A stretch of 64,000 nt of DNA, taken from NCBI RefSeq assembly GCF_011039075.1, contig NZ_JAAKEG010000005.1, positions 1 through 64,000 of the forward strand, in the 5' to 3' direction. The position numbers and the translations under genes are program-made. Under the pieces are notes generated by a model, which ran no database searches, had not been told where the DNA came from, and saw nothing but the letters and a program-made list of their open reading frames with translations. Position 1 is the first letter of the stretch, and each line of letters begins with the position of its first letter. This stretch comes from Adlercreutzia sp. ZJ304. Lineage in GTDB: Bacteria > Actinomycetota > Coriobacteriia > Coriobacteriales > Eggerthellaceae. This document shows positions 45,322 to 55,129 of the stretch, piece after piece.

Positions 45322-47481
45322 TTACGCCCTGCGTGATGCTGTATCTGTCTTGTTTGCTTTTCGGCGACGCATGCAAACAATTGATGCCGCAAGAGTTACC
45401 GCAGACACAAGCGCCATAACAATACCCGTTATAAGCAAGGCTGCGTTCATAGGATTATCTCCCGTTTTAGCCAGAGAAGTGCCCGCAGCTAATACGTTTT
45501 GTGCGGGAAGCTTAGTAGGCACACGTACATATTTCGTAACGGTATTAGTGTTAGGCTTAGTAGGACTTGTGGGCTCAACACCTCCGGGTTCATTATCACT
45601 TGGATTCGTTGGACCGGCGGGCGCATTAGATGCAAGCTTATAAACTATATCTGCGCGCTTTAGAGCGCCAGTGTCTGTATCGCGCGTGTCTACTCTACTT
45701 GCCAGTATGTAATCTCCAACATGTTCAGGTGTATCTGCTATGGCATATGAATAGATACTTTTAGCGCCAGCATTGTATTTAGGAAGCTCTATGAAAGCAT
45801 CTTGTGTGTTTTCCCCTGCATTTACTTCCACAAAATCCATCTCATCTTCGCCTGCTTGTTTAGAAAGAGACACACGAAGAGGCGAAGTGTCTTTATCCGA
45901 GCTACCTTCCCACTTCACACTGTATTCCACTTGCGTGAGATGCAGCGTGTGATTAAACGCAGGATACATGGCTTTTGATTTCTCTGTTTCTATATCAGGA
46001 GATACTGTACATGAAATAGATGAAGCCCTATCCGCTTTCACGCTCTCATGCATTGGATCTATTACAGATGCAAGCCATGTACTTTGTGCATCTATACCCT
46101 CTATGGTGGCACTTTGATCGGGCGCTAGGTAAAGCACTCCGTCTTCTGTAAGATGTACGCCGTCCACATCTCCTGCAGTTGTACCGTTTGCGGCACGCAA
46201 AGTGCCATCATCTGCAATGCGCACTTCGCATTCAAGCACAGTACCTGATAAGTCTTTAACCTTTAAGGCGTAGGTTCGCGCATCATCTGACGCATCAATA
46301 TGTATTACATACGGAAAAAGCGCATCTTTTGCAAACTCGGGAAGTGAAGTGTCATCAGAGTAGTCGCGCTGGGCGCAAAGCATGTTTGTTATAGAAATCT
46401 TGCCCGTAGTATGCGTCTCTGCTTCCTCGCTTGTAAGTATCAAATTTTGGAAAGGCAGATACAGGGCAACAGATTCACCTTCAGGTATTACGCCTTCAAA
46501 GATGCCGCTATATCCACTTACTTGGTTTTCTGTTATGTGCAAGGCTCTGTCAGATGTATCACTACCATCTGTAAGGTGCTGTATGACCGAATATGTAATG
46601 CCACTTGGAAGACTCGGAAAGTGCGCATAGTCGCCACAGCGCAGATAAACCATAAGCTCTACCGTGTTTGCACTAGAGTTATACGCGGGCTCTGTGCTGT
46701 AAGAAGAGCCTAGCGGGATATCTTCTTCTGCAGCCCTAGATACGGGAAGTGGCTTGTTTGTTTTTGGCTCTTGTTCACTAGCTGCAGCAGAAGATGTGCT
46801 AGAAGACGAGCTAGCAGCAGAGGATGAAGCGGAAGACGAATCAGCGGACAAACTAGCAGAAGATGAGCTGCCAGAGGCGCTAGCAGAAGATCTCTCAGAA
46901 GAGCTGTCAGATGTAGAAGCTGCATCCACAGAAGAAGATTCTGCCTTATCAGCCGTGTCACTTTCGGGTGTTTCATTCTGCTTTGTCTGTTGTTCATCCT
47001 CTAGTGGTTCACTAACACAAGGAAGCGAACGAACCTCAGATGCAACCGCTTCAACACTTCTGGCGGCATTCTGCTCAACTACATCTTTGTCGCTATCATC
47101 TCGCGCATATATATCTGGAATGAAACTAGCTTTATCATATATGTAACCTTCAGGCGCACTATCAAGTTCAAATTTGATGGAGTATGTATACGTGCGCTCA
47201 ATATCTCCCTCATTTTTTATGTGCACCTGCGCGCCTTCTGTATTGATAAGTTCAGTATGCATTAGAAGTCCGCCTGTTACGTCAGACGGAATTACAGGCG
47301 CAACCGGCGCATCAGGGGCTTGCACAACATCGCGGTTATTAACCACATCTAGGCGCGTTGCAGATAAGGTTGAAGGCACCATTAAGCAAAGCGACACAAC
47401 AAGACACACCGCACTTACAACCAGTGTTTTTACTCTGAAAAGCTTGTGTGTCTGTTTGTTTTTAATGCGGTTGGTACGCAT
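45322..47481 (-). CDS. Ser-rich cell-wall-anchored surface protein (LAKTG sorting signal)
   Basis: This secreted protein of about 719 residues begins with a basic leader and hydrophobic core (KTLVVSAVCLVVSLCLMVPSTLSA). A Ser/Ala/Asp-rich low-complexity segment of about 55 residues follows roughly 190 residues in. The C-terminus is a complete sorting signal: LAKTGDN, a hydrophobic stretch of about 28 residues, then MRRRKANK. The region after the signal peptide (GGLLMHTELINTEG, then DIERTYTYSIKFELD) looks like beta-sandwich. It closes the sipW-tasA-like run and could anchor the fibre to the wall. No sortase is in the window. ATG 47481 or 47502 may be used. Confidence 0.8.
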   Translation of the reverse strand: MRTNRIKNKQTHKLFRVKTLVVSAVCLVVSLCLMVPSTLSATRLDVVNNRDVVQAPDAPVAPVIPSDVTGGLLMHTELINTEGAQVHIKNEGDIERTYTYSIKFELDSAPEGYIYDKASFIPDIYARDDSDKDVVEQNAARSVEAVASEVRSLPCVSEPLEDEQQTKQNETPESDTADKAESSSVDAASTSDSSSERSSASASGSSSSASLSADSSSASSSAASSSSSTSSAAASEQEPKTNKPLPVSRAAEEDIPLGSSYSTEPAYNSSANTVELMVYLRCGDYAHFPSLPSGITYSVIQHLTDGSDTSDRALHITENQVSGYSGIFEGVIPEGESVALYLPFQNLILTSEEAETHTTGKISITNMLCAQRDYSDDTSLPEFAKDALFPYVIHIDASDDARTYALKVKDLSGTVLECEVRIADDGTLRAANGTTAGDVDGVHLTEDGVLYLAPDQSATIEGIDAQSTWLASVIDPMHESVKADRASSISCTVSPDIETEKSKAMYPAFNHTLHLTQVEYSVKWEGSSDKDTSPLRVSLSKQAGEDEMDFVEVNAGENTQDAFIELPKYNAGAKSIYSYAIADTPEHVGDYILASRVDTRDTDTGALKRADIVYKLASNAPAGPTNPSDNEPGGVEPTSPTKPNTNTVTKYVRVPTKLPAQNVLAAGTSLAKTGDNPMNAALLITGIVMALVSAVTLAASIVCMRRRKANKTDTASRRA

Positions 47482-47551
47482 GTCTCTCATCCTTTTCTGC
47501 ATCGTCTTTAACTATGTTGGACTGAAGGTACTTAATGCCCTAGATAATGCC

Positions 47552-49984
47552 CTAGACATCCTCTGTAAGGGATTTCAGCATGTCATATATATCTTTTGAG
47601 CACGGCATAGTGGCTTGCTCGTCAAAGTAGTAATTGCCATCCGCGCCTATACAGGGTTCATCTACCTCTGCCCATGCGCCCTCTACATTCAGGTTGTAAT
47701 CCCAACCACCTGAATAGCTCACATGTGCACTGTCGATAAGAAGTCCAGTTACTTCTTCTGGTTGAAGCAGCGCTGCCCAGTAGTAATAGCCATCCTTGTC
47801 ATATACCCATACATTGGTCGGAGCACTACCACTCTCACATGCCTTTTTATAATCAGAAATAGTCATTACAGAAGACTCAGGAATGGCGCGGGCACTATGT
47901 TCAACCCACATACCTTCCGTACCGTCATAGAGTGTCTCTTTTGCACGCAACTTATCTCCCGCTTTCCAAGATGCATAGTCAACGAACGCTTGCTCATATG
48001 TTCCGCGTACATCGTTTGCGCTACTTTGCAGGTTCTTGTTAAAAGTTGGCATATAGTAGGCACCACTGCCGCCAAATGCTATGTCTACCTTACCTTTTGC
48101 GTATGTACCATCTGCTCTATATTCAAGCGGTGTGTCTGGCTCTATATCTTGTACTGTCTGACTTGTGGAATACCTCTTAGTAGATAGCTCGTGACTAAGT
48201 TTTACACGCACAAGAACAGGCTGCGCTTCTTTGTCTCCATCATCCGATGCATAGTTTTCGAAGTATACGTTTTTATCTCCGTCAGATTTAAAGCCTGAGA
48301 AATCGTCATGTAGACGAGCGCCTGTGATGGTGTTCATATTTCCATCGGTGTTAGAAGTGGTGGCACACTCTACAACAACACTAACTTCAATCTCGCCTGT
48401 TGCGCCATTAAATGTAGCTTCATCGCCGTTATATTTCTTGCCATCAATTACAAAAGTGGGACCAAAAACGGTAATTCCAGAAGATGTAATCTTGCCACCG
48501 CTTGTAAGGTTAAGTGTATGGCTTCCACTTGCGTTATACATCTTCAGTGTTACCCCTACAGGAATATCTATATCACTTGAACTTGCGCATTGCCCTAGAA
48601 TCTCAACTGTATCTCCCGGATGTGCAGCACTTATAGCCTCACTAAGAGAATCGTAAGGGATACTATTAATAAGCGCATATGTAAGACGATTGGGATAGCT
48701 TACAGATACTTCTGCAATACGATTAGCACACGCTGCATCTGCGGCAGAAAACGCACCAGTATAGGAAGTGTCAGACACACTAAATGAATCCCTACCATCT
48801 GCCAATATAAGCATGTCTTGATATTCAGTAAGAATTGATTGCGCTATACAGGCAGATACTAAGTAATTACCTTTGGAATTAACATGCGTAGAGTCGCTTA
48901 AAAATGCAAAATCGTTACCATTGCCTAGATAGGTTTGCCCTGCATCACGTATTACAGTACATCCGGGTATAACAAAATCTACCACTCCAGCCTGTTCAAC
49001 CGCTTCAACGCAAGCTTTAGAGTTCTCATAGCACTCATCCACTGTACCTGAATAACCATCTCTTGCACCGATACCCATATTGGGCTTTTTGCTTGCACTC
49101 TCTTTATCAACCCAATCAGCAAACCATGCAATCTTAGCTCCCGGTTGGCGAGAACTATCATGTAAAAGGTCTACAACTCTCTGCAGTCCATTCTTAAACT
49201 CATCCGGCGTACACTGAGAAGCCGACTCCATCCAATCTTGCACAACAATTACATCCCATGCATCTTTTGCTTGAAGTTTTGCAACGTAATTAGCTCCGCA
49301 AGCATTAATACCCGTTATGTGATTTATCTGCGTACAACGAGAATGATATGCGTTTGTCTTAAAAAGCCCATGTCCACCAGCTGAGTTTCCAGCAAGCTCA
49401 ATTTTTATATTTGTATCTAACCCAACCGACCTGAGGCTACTACATAGCGCTTGATCAGATGAGGTATTCAAAAATGTATGGCTATTACCAATCCTTAATA
49501 CACGTAATTCCTCAAGCTTTAACTGTATGTTGGGATGCGATTCAGCATATCTACCTGCACAAGAATTCATATGGGCATACATTTCGAATTGTCTATTCTG
49601 CGGAAATGCATCATCTGCAATGTTTGTTACAGAATCAGGTACTTTGATGGTATTTAGATTCGTACAGTCCTTAAAAATGTTTGATGATATAGATGTAACA
49701 CCATCGCTTACAACAATGTCAGTAATACTTAAGTTCGCAATATCGCTATACCATTGAGCTTCAAAACTTGAGCCCTGAATGCTAGGCATACCGCCTGTAC
49801 CAGATATACTCAAAGTACATTTATTGCTGTTGCTATTAACAACACTATAAGTAAGCGACGAATTAGGAATATATCCTGATTTTGCAGTATCTGCAAATGC
49901 CACAAAAGGCACTAGCAGCATTACTGCAAGCAAAAGCATTATGAACTTAATTGCAATACTTTTTATATCCTTTATAGCTGTCAT
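47552..49984 (-). CDS. secreted SGNH-hydrolase-like protein fused to the TasA-like module
   Basis: The 810-residue product has a signal peptide (about 1-31, ending VAFADTA). A short leucine-rich-repeat-like part (about 85-130: IVVSDGVTSISSNIF, IKVPDSVTNIADDAF) follows, then an SGNH/DUF4886-like hydrolase (about 160-395). The hydrolase has RIGNSHT (Ser168), ELAGNSAGG (Asn200) and SDSTHVNSKGNY (Asp364, His367). Residues about 541-810 are homologous to residues 45-315 of the next protein upstream (TGARLHDDF, KNVYFENYA, PVLVRVKLSHE, YYMPTFNK, VTGLLIDSA). It could be an enzymatic subunit of the same extracellular structure. AAAGG lies upstream of the ATG. Confidence 0.75.
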   Translation of the reverse strand: MTAIKDIKSIAIKFIMLLLAVMLLVPFVAFADTAKSGYIPNSSLTYSVVNSNSNKCTLSISGTGGMPSIQGSSFEAQWYSDIANLSITDIVVSDGVTSISSNIFKDCTNLNTIKVPDSVTNIADDAFPQNRQFEMYAHMNSCAGRYAESHPNIQLKLEELRVLRIGNSHTFLNTSSDQALCSSLRSVGLDTNIKIELAGNSAGGHGLFKTNAYHSRCTQINHITGINACGANYVAKLQAKDAWDVIVVQDWMESASQCTPDEFKNGLQRVVDLLHDSSRQPGAKIAWFADWVDKESASKKPNMGIGARDGYSGTVDECYENSKACVEAVEQAGVVDFVIPGCTVIRDAGQTYLGNGNDFAFLSDSTHVNSKGNYLVSACIAQSILTEYQDMLILADGRDSFSVSDTSYTGAFSAADAACANRIAEVSVSYPNRLTYALINSIPYDSLSEAISAAHPGDTVEILGQCASSSDIDIPVGVTLKMYNASGSHTLNLTSGGKITSSGITVFGPTFVIDGKKYNGDEATFNGATGEIEVSVVVECATTSNTDGNMNTITGARLHDDFSGFKSDGDKNVYFENYASDDGDKEAQPVLVRVKLSHELSTKRYSTSQTVQDIEPDTPLEYRADGTYAKGKVDIAFGGSGAYYMPTFNKNLQSSANDVRGTYEQAFVDYASWKAGDKLRAKETLYDGTEGMWVEHSARAIPESSVMTISDYKKACESGSAPTNVWVYDKDGYYYWAALLQPEEVTGLLIDSAHVSYSGGWDYNLNVEGAWAEVDEPCIGADGNYYFDEQATMPCSKDIYDMLKSLTEDV

Positions 49985-50077
49985 CGCTTACCTTTATCTT
50001 TCCATATTTACTAACTAATCAATCTTTAAATAATGAACAGGCTGTTAAATTATTCTTTTAAGAAAAGTTATTGTGGT

Positions 50078-50114
50078 GGGGCAGCGATATAAAAATTGGA
50101 CTATTCGCTACCCC
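50078..50114 (-). terminator. hairpin between the TasA-like and SGNH-like genes
   Basis: A 10-bp stem (GGGGCAGCGA at 50078-50087 with TCGCTACCCC at 50105-50114, plus strand; one G-U pair on the minus-strand RNA) lies about 75 bp after the TasA-like stop codon. There is no tight T-run. It may be a partial terminator or may stabilise the upstream message. Confidence 0.45.
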
Positions 50115-50187
50115 AACATTTATTTCTAATACGAAGTTCAATTTGCGATAAATCATTAGAGATTTATGCCGTTATTGACAAATTACT

Positions 50188-51789
50188 CTAATACCGAATG
50201 ACAAACATGGGTAAAGCGCATATCGGCCATGTATGACTCGGAGAAGAGTTAGTCATCCACTCTACATCTGAATCCGTAGGATCCAAGTATACAATGCTTA
50301 TACCGTTGAGAGGTTGACCCTCCTCTAGACTCATCCAGCTAGCCGAACTAACAAGTAACGAAGTATTTGCATTAAAATTAGAAAAAAGATTTTTCACAAT
50401 TGCTTCGCCGGTTAACATCTCAGATGGCATATTAAGCCCAGTAGAGTTTGCAAATGTAGGACCTACTATAGAGCTTATAAAAGTATCGTCCGTATCCCCA
50501 AGCGTCGGTAGTGTAATCTTCTGCTTTACGATTGTGTTGTCACCACTGTTTCCAGAATTGTTATATGCATAATCTTTCGCAACAGCACAGCTAGCAATAG
50601 TTGGTTTATTGGCAAGCCATCCATCTGTTTCGGCACTGTTAATATAGGCGTTTACCCATGTCTTATCGAAAGATACACCATCCTCTATTGGTTTCGCTGT
50701 TGTATCTATGTCAACCTTATTCTCTTGCGAAGTTAAAAGCACAGCCTCACGGGTTTTTTCATTGCGACCGATAATCGTGAATTTGGTATCATCAATAGTA
50801 ACCTCGCCTGACCCAATTTCAGCAGTAGCAATTGCAGCACTCTGGGTTGCGTTTATACGACCGAGCGATTTAGCAAGCATGTTGTAGATACCCTCAGACA
50901 TCGGCATTATGGCATCTTTGTCAAAGTAATATTGACCCTCTTTCACACAGGGCTCATTTATGTCTGCATAGGTACCCTGAACATCAATGGTATACGTCCA
51001 GCCACCAGTAGAATTTACAACAGCATCGTTGATGAGAAGACCAGTAACTTTCCCCGGATTAAGGGGTTCAGACCAGTAGTAGTAGCCATTCGCACTGTCT
51101 GCGTCATATACCCAAGCTGCAGGAAGGGAAGGATTAGCTGCTTTGGCAGTTTCCCAATCAGCAACTGAAGCATAAACTTGGCAATCAGGAATAGCTTTAG
51201 CCTTGTGCTCAGTAGCTGCAATAGTATTGCCGTTATAGTCTTTTCCGGCTTCACTTATTGCCTCTTCATTTGCCCAGTCTTTGTAGTTGGCGGGGTTGTT
51301 GTTTATACTTCTGACATCATTTGCAGGGTCATTAATTTGCTTGTTAAAGGTTGGCATATAGTACTCGCCACTACCACCCATTGTGACTGTAATATTATTT
51401 GCTGCATAATTTGGAGTAAGTGCAGAGCCAGCCGCTACAACCTCAGTAGATGTTGTTTTATCTCTGGTTGTATATTCATGAGTCAGCTTCACGCGGACCA
51501 ATACAGGATTTGCAGCGATTGTGTCGCTTTCTTCTGCAAAGTTTTCAAAGTAGACATTCTTGTCGTGTTTGCCTTCTTCATTTTTAAAACCCGCAAAGTC
51601 ATCATGCAGACGAGCTCCTGTATAGGATGCAAGTTCGTTTTCATCAACATTAGATGTAGTAGCGCCCACTACAGCAGCAAAGGTAGCAGGTACACCAATA
51701 GCAAGTGCAAGTGTTACAGCCAAACCTGCTGTTAGCGCCTTCTTTCCCTTCCCCTTTTGCTTAGGCTCTGTTACTGTCGTATAAGACAT
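50188..51789 (-). CDS. TasA/camelysin-like secreted matrix protein
   Basis: The 533-residue product has the signal peptide typical of SipW substrates: a basic start, then KKALTAGLAVTLALAIGVPATFAA and VVGATTSNVDEN. Residues 45-315 form the module shared with the next gene (TGARLHDDFAGFK to EGIYNML). Residues about 325-533 look like a DUF6273-type domain (VTIDDTKFTIIGRNEKTREAVLL, WVNAYIN). There is no sorting signal. AAAGGAG precedes the ATG. The signal peptidase gene lies about 100 bp upstream, which supports a fibre or matrix protein processed by it. The match to TasA is by layout and signal type rather than by clear overall similarity. Confidence 0.7.
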   Translation of the reverse strand: MSYTTVTEPKQKGKGKKALTAGLAVTLALAIGVPATFAAVVGATTSNVDENELASYTGARLHDDFAGFKNEEGKHDKNVYFENFAEESDTIAANPVLVRVKLTHEYTTRDKTTSTEVVAAGSALTPNYAANNITVTMGGSGEYYMPTFNKQINDPANDVRSINNNPANYKDWANEEAISEAGKDYNGNTIAATEHKAKAIPDCQVYASVADWETAKAANPSLPAAWVYDADSANGYYYWSEPLNPGKVTGLLINDAVVNSTGGWTYTIDVQGTYADINEPCVKEGQYYFDKDAIMPMSEGIYNMLAKSLGRINATQSAAIATAEIGSGEVTIDDTKFTIIGRNEKTREAVLLTSQENKVDIDTTAKPIEDGVSFDKTWVNAYINSAETDGWLANKPTIASCAVAKDYAYNNSGNSGDNTIVKQKITLPTLGDTDDTFISSIVGPTFANSTGLNMPSEMLTGEAIVKNLFSNFNANTSLLVSSASWMSLEEGQPLNGISIVYLDPTDSDVEWMTNSSPSHTWPICALPMFVIRY

Positions 51790-51838
51790 TTTTAGAGCTC
51801 CTTTCTCTCATATAGTCTCTAGAAACTTGTCTAACTTT

Positions 51839-51871
51839 GCACGCAGGGGTGTCTTCACCGCCCTTGCGTGC
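51839..51871 (-). other. strong hairpin between sipW-like and tasA-like genes
   Basis: GCACGCAGGGG (51839-51849) pairs with CCCTTGCGTGC (51861-51871) with one mismatch. It has no T-run and lies about 20 bp after the peptidase stop codon. It is likely a processing, attenuation or mRNA-stability element. Confidence 0.5.
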
Positions 51872-51888
51872 GCCCCTAAATTTCTTCG

Positions 51889-52704
51889 CTATCTAATTGC
51901 ACCACCTCCCTTCAGAGGCATATACGCCTGATATGCATCTTTGCGTGTTCTAGCTTTTCTATCTGTTATGCAAGAAATAGCAAAAACTAATAGAGCGACG
52001 GATATAACCCACCCAACACCAACCATCCACCACTCCCTTACAAGCTGTATTACTGCTCCGGCTATTGCACTTGATGCCACAACTTTGCCCACTATGTTTT
52101 CAGGGGATACTAGTATTTCATCAGGTGTTTGATTCATAACACCCTGCGTTCTAAACACTCGTTTGATGGGATCAGTTTCGTCTGCGTAAACATCTACTAT
52201 GCGATGGGTAATAGATGTGCCTGTTGCAGTTAGATATGTAATGTCGTCGCCTTCACGAAGACTTGTTGGATCTGTTGTGTGTGTTATGACAAGCGTGCCT
52301 TTAGGATAAACGCTCTCCATTGAAGAAGATGCCACTATTGCAGCTGAGTACCCCGCAAAACTTATAGGTGTGCCACCAGATGCAAATATTTTCGCCCCCA
52401 CAATAGCCGCGCACACCAATACAAGGCACACTACAAATACGATATTTGAGGCGACATGGCGCTTTTTTGCTGGGGGCTTATTTGCGGTAGTATATGATTG
52501 AACCACCCCGTGTTTAGGATAGCGGCGCGCGCCCTCAGGGAAATAAGCATCGGGATAAGCAGGATTGCTAAGACTTTTTGTCACATAAAAGCTAGCAGGG
52601 ACAGAACCTGCGATTTGGTGCCGGGCGCCGCCGCTTTGCCCTACCCCACGGGACGGTTGGGGTGGGTAAGCGGAATTTGCCGCATGCGGAACCATACCGT
52701 ACAT
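51889..52704 (-). CDS. SipW-type (ER/archaeal-like) signal peptidase I
   Basis: This membrane serine protease removes signal peptides. The 271-residue product has an unusual N-terminal cytoplasmic extension of about 85 residues (Pro/Tyr/Ala rich, ending KPPAKKRHV). A helix follows (about 88-108), then the catalytic domain with Ser in VASSSMESVYPKGTLVI. His in TGTSITHRIVDV replaces the Lys of ordinary bacterial enzymes. A second helix lies near the C-terminus. Ser/His enzymes of this class process TasA-like proteins, and such a gene follows directly. The first ATG lacks a clear ribosome site. Confidence 0.85.
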   Translation of the reverse strand: MYGMVPHAANSAYPPQPSRGVGQSGGARHQIAGSVPASFYVTKSLSNPAYPDAYFPEGARRYPKHGVVQSYTTANKPPAKKRHVASNIVFVVCLVLVCAAIVGAKIFASGGTPISFAGYSAAIVASSSMESVYPKGTLVITHTTDPTSLREGDDITYLTATGTSITHRIVDVYADETDPIKRVFRTQGVMNQTPDEILVSPENIVGKVVASSAIAGAVIQLVREWWMVGVGWVISVALLVFAISCITDRKARTRKDAYQAYMPLKGGGAIR

Positions 52705-53244: not shown

Positions 53245-53397
53245 AAAAGTGGTCAAAACTTCCAGCTTTCCACTGTGAAAAGCACAGAATAGCGCCTATA
53301 GATGCACCATCAAATACTGTTTGCCCAGTGTTCTCCACAATTCAAGCTACCTTCATGGCAATCCGACCGTGGAAAGTCGGAAGTTTTGACCACTTTT
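53245..53397. repeat. short terminal-inverted-repeat element, copy 2 (MITE-like)
   Basis: The ends 53245-53273 and 53369-53397 are 29-bp inverted repeats with two mismatches (core AAAAGTGGTCAAAACTTCC). The interior shares GTTTGCCCAGTGTTCTCCAC with copy 1 at 2232-2396. It is 153 bp long with no coding capacity. Confidence 0.75.
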
Positions 53398-53853: not shown

Positions 53854-55056
53854 CTATCGCATTACGCGGCGGATAACACCTATTCTTTCTTCCACTTCAT
53901 CAACAACAGTTTTTATGCGACGCTCGGGGATATTAGGATTCTTAGACAGTATTTCATGCAAGCTATCAGTGTATCCGTCTAGCGCATCAGAGGTAAACCA
54001 ATCAAAATAGCCATCGAATAGACGAACCTGATCTATTGGTTTCATGCCCCCATACTTAAAGGGCTTTGCCTTGTACAGAAAATCTGCCGGGACTTCCAAT
54101 AGTTCAACATTAGACCACAAGCAAGAACCGGTATCGAACACCGGAGCCAAGCGCGTAACCTCCAGCGTTTCAACATTGCGAATTATTCCAAAATTACGGT
54201 AATGCCGATCGCGATTCGCCAATATATAATCGCACACAAACATCTTAGCTAGTTGCGTCATAACCTCGTGCGCATCTAACCCTAAATCGACACAACGCTT
54301 AACGTAAAATTGCAGTTCAGACAGGTTATTCGGCTGTTTCACATTGCGAATTACATCCCACGCAGCTATAAGTTCTTCATCGGGTTCTAGCATGTTTTCG
54401 CAAGCTGAATACACGCGCCGTCCATCTTCAAAAAGCGTATACGGCAAATATTCACCTGCATTCATTAGACGCGAATGCAATTCCGTTGCAGCAACTTCGT
54501 TGTAGGGCTCTTGGTTAACGAAACCAACACCGGCTTTCAGCAAAATGCGCTTACCGCCAACTATCTTCCATTTCTTCAGAAGATCGCCGCCTAGCGTGCT
54601 GTTCGGCGAAGATAAGTTAATGTTTGCATAGTCCGGAGCATCAGGAGACGACCCAGACGAGTCTTGCCCCAAGGTTAGAAAACCCAAATCGTCAGTAAAA
54701 TCGTTATCGAAAAAGTTAATCTCTTCCCAAGTTTTAGGATCGTCTTCATTGTTCAGCCAATAGCGATCCGACAGCGACAAGCCGAAACTTTTCTCCGCAA
54801 GCACCAGTGTGCTTGCAAGATTTAAATTTTCCAATAACCTATCTATCTGAGCGCGAGAAGCCGGTATAGCACGCGCAGCCCACCAATAATTTATTTCGCT
54901 TTTGGTTATTTCGCCACGCCTATCATGTATACCTATCGGAGCCGCTTCTAAACATTCGGTTCTGGTTATGCGCGTAGCCTTATGCTGTTCCATATCGTAC
55001 TCAAACGCCAGCACAGGCGTGTTTTTATTCATAAGAATATAATTTGCTAGACCCAT
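53854..55056 (-). CDS. orphan HipA-like protein kinase
   Basis: The 400-residue product resembles the kinase domain of HipA/CtkA-type Ser/Thr kinases. It has a nucleotide-binding lysine in KRILLKAG with NEVAATEL after it. The catalytic loop is YILANRDRHYRNFG (Asp and Asn present), and the metal site is APVFDTGSCLW. No HipB-like antitoxin gene is adjacent, so a toxin-antitoxin role is not supported. The start is ATG 55054-55056; a longer frame to 55095 exists. It lies between the ATP synthase operon and the 1.15 kb gene-free region. Confidence 0.75.
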   Translation of the reverse strand: MGLANYILMNKNTPVLAFEYDMEQHKATRITRTECLEAAPIGIHDRRGEITKSEINYWWAARAIPASRAQIDRLLENLNLASTLVLAEKSFGLSLSDRYWLNNEDDPKTWEEINFFDNDFTDDLGFLTLGQDSSGSSPDAPDYANINLSSPNSTLGGDLLKKWKIVGGKRILLKAGVGFVNQEPYNEVAATELHSRLMNAGEYLPYTLFEDGRRVYSACENMLEPDEELIAAWDVIRNVKQPNNLSELQFYVKRCVDLGLDAHEVMTQLAKMFVCDYILANRDRHYRNFGIIRNVETLEVTRLAPVFDTGSCLWSNVELLEVPADFLYKAKPFKYGGMKPIDQVRLFDGYFDWFTSDALDGYTDSLHEILSKNPNIPERRIKTVVDEVEERIGVIRRVMR

Positions 55057-55129
55057 AACCAATTCACCCCGCTCTGCATACCGGAAGCATTTCAATCTCG
55101 ATTATAGAGGATACAGACAGAAAATATGA

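Follow-up and report, generated by a model that had tools for sequence, protein, structure and literature searches.

A few Bacillota are known to build matrix fibres that depend on SipW. The question raised here is whether four consecutive genes of Adlercreutzia sp. ZJ304 (Eggerthellaceae; genome of 2.0 Mb in 33 contigs) encode a fibre of this kind, how it would be held to the cell, and why one of its proteins should carry a hydrolase domain. We examined a stretch of 64,000 nucleotides, referred to as the window. The sequence-only reading of this DNA had described four genes, in order on a single strand, for a SipW-type signal peptidase, a secreted protein, a hydrolase fusion and a wall-anchored protein. 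All four are indeed present in that order on the minus strand, and the intergenic gaps from sipW to the LAKTG gene are 99, 203, and 49 nt (Table 1). We believe, with a probability of about 0.55, that these genes specify an extracellular fibre of the BsaA type that is anchored to the wall and has an enzyme attached.

Table 1. The four genes and the protein regions discussed in the text, in positions of the window
Feature	Position	Strand	Product or residues
sipW	52704-51889	minus	271 aa
Fibre-subunit candidate, secreted	51789-50188	minus	533 aa
SGNH/module protein, secreted	49984-47552	minus	810 aa
LAKTG Ser-rich protein	47502-45322	minus	726 aa
Shared BsaA-related module, copy 1	50863..51663	minus	residues 43-309 of 533-aa protein
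Shared module, copy 2	47567..48364	minus	residues 541-806 of 810-aa protein
SGNH/DUF4886 region	48815..49507	minus	about residues 160-390 (PF16227 and motifs)
LAKTG sorting motif	45460..45474	minus	residue 677 of 726-aa protein
Ser-rich stalk	46789..46968	minus	residues 179-238, Ser 32/60

Judged by its sequence, the product of the first gene is an ER-type (Ser/His) signal peptidase I, as had been proposed. It scored 74.8 bits on NCBIfam TIGR02228 (signal peptidase I; cut-off 51.85), and Ser128 and His167 were invariant among 38 SipW homologues. No other protein of the genome matched TIGR02228 above the cut-off. The N-terminus has an extension of about 80 residues ahead of the first hydrophobic span, and the Bacillus equivalog NF046067 scored 67 bits, under its cut-off of 190 bits. 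Promoter-like and terminator-like sites were no commoner at the locus than in shuffled sequence; hence, we claim no transcription units. An invertible promoter upstream of sipW was considered and dropped, since the inverted repeat there (53245-53397) is a genome-wide repeat element. This element of about 150 bp with inverted ends also occurs at 2235-2393 of the window. The pattern GTGGTCAAAACTTCC, allowing at most one mismatch, had 53 forward and 51 reverse matches in the host genome, while the reversed control pattern had 0.

The 533-aa product of the second gene consists of a signal, a BsaA-related module, and a degenerate DUF6273-like C-terminal domain, the last on weak profile evidence. 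It had been described as a secreted protein with a SipW-type signal. The evidence for the SipW type is the place of the gene in the locus and homology; on a profile built from the SipW-type signals of homologues, the window copies scored at noise level. The prediction that a module of about 270 residues is reused behind the hydrolase was correct, with the two copies being 45% identical over 276 aa (BLASTP, E = 2e-65). Copy 2 retains an ATTSNxDxN segment, which in copy 1 is placed just past the cleavage region (similarity P = 0.002 versus residue shuffles). An assembly chimera is an unlikely source of the fusion because the copies share only 45% identity.

The rest of the 810-aa protein comprises an ordinary-looking signal, a BspA-type leucine-rich repeat (LRR) region, a DUF4886 SGNH domain, and a linker ahead of the module. 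The LRR (PF13306, LRR_5) and DUF4886 (PF16227) both scored above the Pfam gathering scores, the latter with 36.8 versus 26.7 bits (E = 2.7e-9; alignment covering residues 236-385). Together with the motifs GNSHT (166-170) and DSTH (364-367), this match supports the predicted SGNH hydrolase. The Block III Asn was not evident in the SGNH region, and no relatives of the region were found in the PDB. The DUF4886 family has no known activity (PMC9487903). In all other full-module proteins, the module begins within the first ~90 residues; the 810-aa protein alone has it at the C-terminal end, from about residue 549.

The fourth product has the features of a Ser-rich, sortase-anchored protein, in agreement with the sequence-only reading: an LPXTG-like motif (LAKTG), one hydrophobic span past it, and then a basic tail, in a genome with three sortases above the Pfam cut-off, all away from the locus. 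DUF7601 (E = 0.002) and Cna_B (E = 0.046) were both sub-threshold on this protein. An anchor-family profile gave a weak match, with E = 5e-8 in a single-sequence search, which equals about 1e-4 over 2,038 ORFs. Going by these matches, the protein is probably, at best, distantly related to the DUF7601/Cna_B anchors. A SipW-type signal on this anchor was also considered and was unsupported by the signal profile.

A single-sequence genome scan for relatives of the module found none, and when 84,980 species were scanned with the pattern of a 3-sequence alignment, 51 module loci came up. In 12 of the 20 loci having both a sipW and a module gene (L041, L042, L046, L051, L052, L053, L056, L059, L063, L065, L070, and L077), sipW is followed on one strand by one or more module genes and then by an anchor gene; several of the other eight are truncated by the end of the locus. 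These three core genes stay together in many gut bacteria; the hosts belong to two phyla and include Clostridia, Erysipelotrichaceae, Lactococcus, and Coriobacteriia. The anchors tested have DUF7601, DUF5979, Cna_B, FctA, and SpaA domains and LPXTG-like tails that resemble sorting signals, and the cassettes often hold at least two module genes behind a single sipW. This recurrence supports the earlier idea of a fibre-type system that depends on SipW and includes a partner with a covalent anchor. Literature searches in open-licence papers brought up no account of the anchored cassette. Module genes also occur without a nearby sipW, often in many copies, which implies that the linkage of sipW and module is not strict.

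The cassette anchors and modules have a mature N-terminal motif, WxSxxQxAxN, in common. The summed score for likeness of the anchor and module N-termini was 376, whereas 2,000 residue shuffles reached 116 at most. Partners from the same locus showed a weak excess of likeness (p = 0.025). TapA donates a TasA-like N-terminus and starts TasA filaments (PMC10151520). By analogy, the shared N-terminus suggests TapA-like nucleation by the wall-anchored protein. Since the motif sits in the region where SipW cleaves, it could be due to shared processing alone. In the window, the subunit and anchor lack WxSxxQxAxN and show no mutual likeness at this end (P = 0.5).

We also observed tyrosine recombinase genes followed by inverted repeats of 21 to 28 nt in four loci (L041:1038-2194, L043:5436-6786, L044:1388-2476, and L062:6841-8007). 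The repeats are separated by 166 to 264 nt and precede sipW or a module gene, and three of the four have the core TACAACATA. Since this arrangement resembles an invertible promoter, some Clostridia may show phase variation of the cassette. Two module proteins end in other C-terminal domains, a PT-HINT pretoxin domain (L045:7866-10439) and a ricin-B-type lectin domain (L085:7920-10484).

The genomic setting of the locus bears on whether its four genes belong together. The interval between atpC and dnaE in the window is about 10 kb and holds the four-gene locus and a HipA_C-like gene. The G+C content of this island is 39 to 47% versus mostly 48 to 54% on the flanks. In a congener (G011), atpC and dnaE are adjacent, about 210 bp apart, so that the site is empty. 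In Adlercreutzia murintestinalis, atpD and dnaE are separated by 15.7 kb with other genes inside, among which we noted large ORFs of 2,052 and 1,446 aa with signal-like starts (L121, G010:C4:60600-76500); with such ORFs, the site resembles a hotspot for surface-protein cargo. Taken together, the interval appears to be a cargo site at which the four-gene locus was gained horizontally. The HipA_C-like protein of the same island (53854-55095), which is also PI3-PI4-kinase-like, scored slightly under the Pfam cut-offs.

Such a site could also bring unrelated genes together. SipW and the 533-aa protein would then make a BsaA-type fibre, the SGNH and LAKTG proteins would be independent and share the island by chance, and module copy 2 would be a leftover of recombination. 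The other surface-type ORFs at the A. murintestinalis site fit this explanation, as does the 203-nt gap behind the subunit gene, which could split transcription units. The 810-aa protein has neither a SipW-type signal nor a wall anchor, and DUF4886 was absent from the other Coriobacteriia, occurring in this genome alone among 199 genomes. The fusion of hydrolase and module was likewise found in this genome only. Therefore, the test set beforehand, the joint distribution of the four genes, had a divided outcome, with linkage of the three core genes on one side and a fusion seen in a single genome on the other. However, module copy 2, at 45% identity, remains intact and retains the segment past the cleavage region, an anchored protein stands behind the module genes in 12 other loci, and the SGNH and anchor genes are only 49 nt apart. 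We consider a chance association of these genes rather unlikely.

If the four genes do encode one structure, its nature depends on the kinship of the module. The NCBIfam model TIGR04090 (BsaA family SipW-dependent biofilm matrix protein) was matched by 68 of 75 aligned module homologues (best E = 6.7e-13), mostly under the curated cut-off of 60 bits, and homologues searched singly also fell under 60 bits. The match persisted after removal of the signal, lying in the body of the protein at profile positions of about 81 to 192 and below the curated cut-off. For the window itself, copy 2 matched TIGR04090 at 17.8 bits (E = 0.0021; residues 159-223 of the searched piece), and copy 1 had no direct match. 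A profile alignment (hhalign) of the module with 13 Coriobacteriia SipW substrates, signals removed, was co-linear over the full length with E = 3e-8. By these comparisons, the module body is homologous to the BsaA family independently of the signal, with copy 1 connected via intermediates. We describe the module on this basis as related to BsaA and do not file it as a TIGR04090 member, because the scores fall under the curated cut-off.

BsaA of Clostridium perfringens needs SipW for its secretion and forms filaments (PMC7395162). The purified protein polymerises, the polymers are unlike amyloid in dye tests, and deletion of the adjacent srtB left both polymers and pellicles unchanged (PMC7395162). 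The srtB result speaks against the anchored-fibre explanation. The polymerisation of the characterised member of a related family counts against reading the module proteins as wall-associated adhesins, in which the module and its DUF6273-like partner would bind ligands as monomers and SipW would merely process them. Large single proteins containing DUF6273, Big_2, LRR, ricin-B lectin, or PT-HINT domains are numerous among the module homologues, and many module genes have no nearby sipW; both observations would fit an adhesin. On the other hand, the frequent presence of two or more module genes per sipW in the cassettes is more in keeping with a fibre, and we find the adhesin explanation improbable.

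The sequence-only reading had likened the locus to that of TasA and proposed structure prediction of the module against TasA/camelysin as a check. An AF2 model of copy 1 reached a pLDDT of 82.9 and was beta-rich, with low confidence in the first ~17 residues; an earlier model from a 3-row alignment (pLDDT 48) was set aside along with its fold search. Foldseek, run on the model of pLDDT 82.9, returned no match at E < 0.001 and no link to the TasA fold, hhalign found nothing between module and TasA (comparator sequence checked against 8AUR and 5OF1), and a PDB sequence search (hmmsearch) with the module found neither TasA nor a related solved structure. Kinship to TasA/camelysin was rejected on these results, the kin being BsaA. 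It is accordingly very hard to credit that the locus is a genuine TasA/TapA system whose subunit has the TasA fold, even though BsaA and TasA are both SipW-dependent and polymer-forming (PMC7395162) and TIGR04090 also matches in a Bacillus subtilis control genome, a match that may stem from the signal peptide.

Returning to the anchored BsaA-type fibre, we propose the following sequence of events. SipW would cleave the precursor of the 533-aa subunit, whose module would polymerise outside the cell as C. perfringens BsaA does. A sortase from elsewhere in the genome would join the LAKTG protein to peptidoglycan, where, going by the recurrent cassette, it would hold or nucleate the base of the fibre in a TapA-like but covalent manner. 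The 810-aa protein would leave by the ordinary secretion route and could enter the fibre via its C-terminal module. Because that module is C-terminal and the protein has no SipW signal, we suggest that the 810-aa protein may cap the fibre. If subunits are joined by N-terminal donor strands as in TasA, which is speculative, the module of the 810-aa protein might take up the strand donated by the final subunit, with the fused LRR/SGNH region blocking its own, resulting in a fibre cap that displays an esterase-type enzyme.

More tentatively, and with the odds against it, the cassettes may represent a widespread, undescribed class of fibre. SipW would free a BsaA-type subunit and a Cna_B/DUF7601 anchor with the same N-terminus, the anchor would give the first donor strand and thereby start the fibre at the wall, and subunits having the module behind another domain would end the fibre and display cargo, here the SGNH enzyme. 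If such a class exists, the function of SipW would be to provide donor strands with free N-termini that are defined. A cassette that pairs a fibre subunit with a sortase-anchored protein of the same N-terminus makes the attachment of fibre to cell directly testable in genetically accessible hosts, e.g., lactococci. The hydrolase fusion, if it functions as proposed, would be a naturally occurring example of a matrix fibre that carries an enzyme.

Within the genus, loci L006 and L007 of A. murintestinalis are similar to the window: sipW adjoins a module gene, and a second module and DUF6273 gene is followed by a LARTG DUF7601/Cna_B anchor. They differ in being on two contigs, in the lack of an SGNH fusion, and in an ATPase gene (AAA_14/DUF4143) near the module genes, which lies on the opposite strand between two of them (L006:870-2186). 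The domains DUF7601, Cna_B, FctA, and SpaA and the LPXTG-like signals of the cassette anchors are also those of sortase-assembled pili; unlike those pili, the window locus has no sortase gene, and its candidate polymer subunit has no sorting signal. Like the window locus, tapA-sipW-tasA of B. subtilis combines a dedicated SipW with a fibre subunit and an accessory protein. The accessory protein of the recurrent cassette has the mature N-terminus of the subunit, as TapA has that of TasA, but it is wall-anchored with Cna_B/DUF7601 domains, whereas TapA has an Ig fold; the window module has no link to TasA in sequence or fold. The sipW-bsaABCRSD operon of C. perfringens differs in its two-component genes, which the window locus lacks, and no sortase-anchored partner has been described for it, while the window locus has a predicted one. 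Its BsaA is about 23 kDa, whereas the window module bears an extra C-terminal domain and has a second copy fused to LRR/SGNH. Still, BsaA and the window module are homologous at the family level, and in both loci SipW is directly followed by the SipW-dependent, filament-forming matrix protein or its candidate counterpart and then by further secreted proteins.
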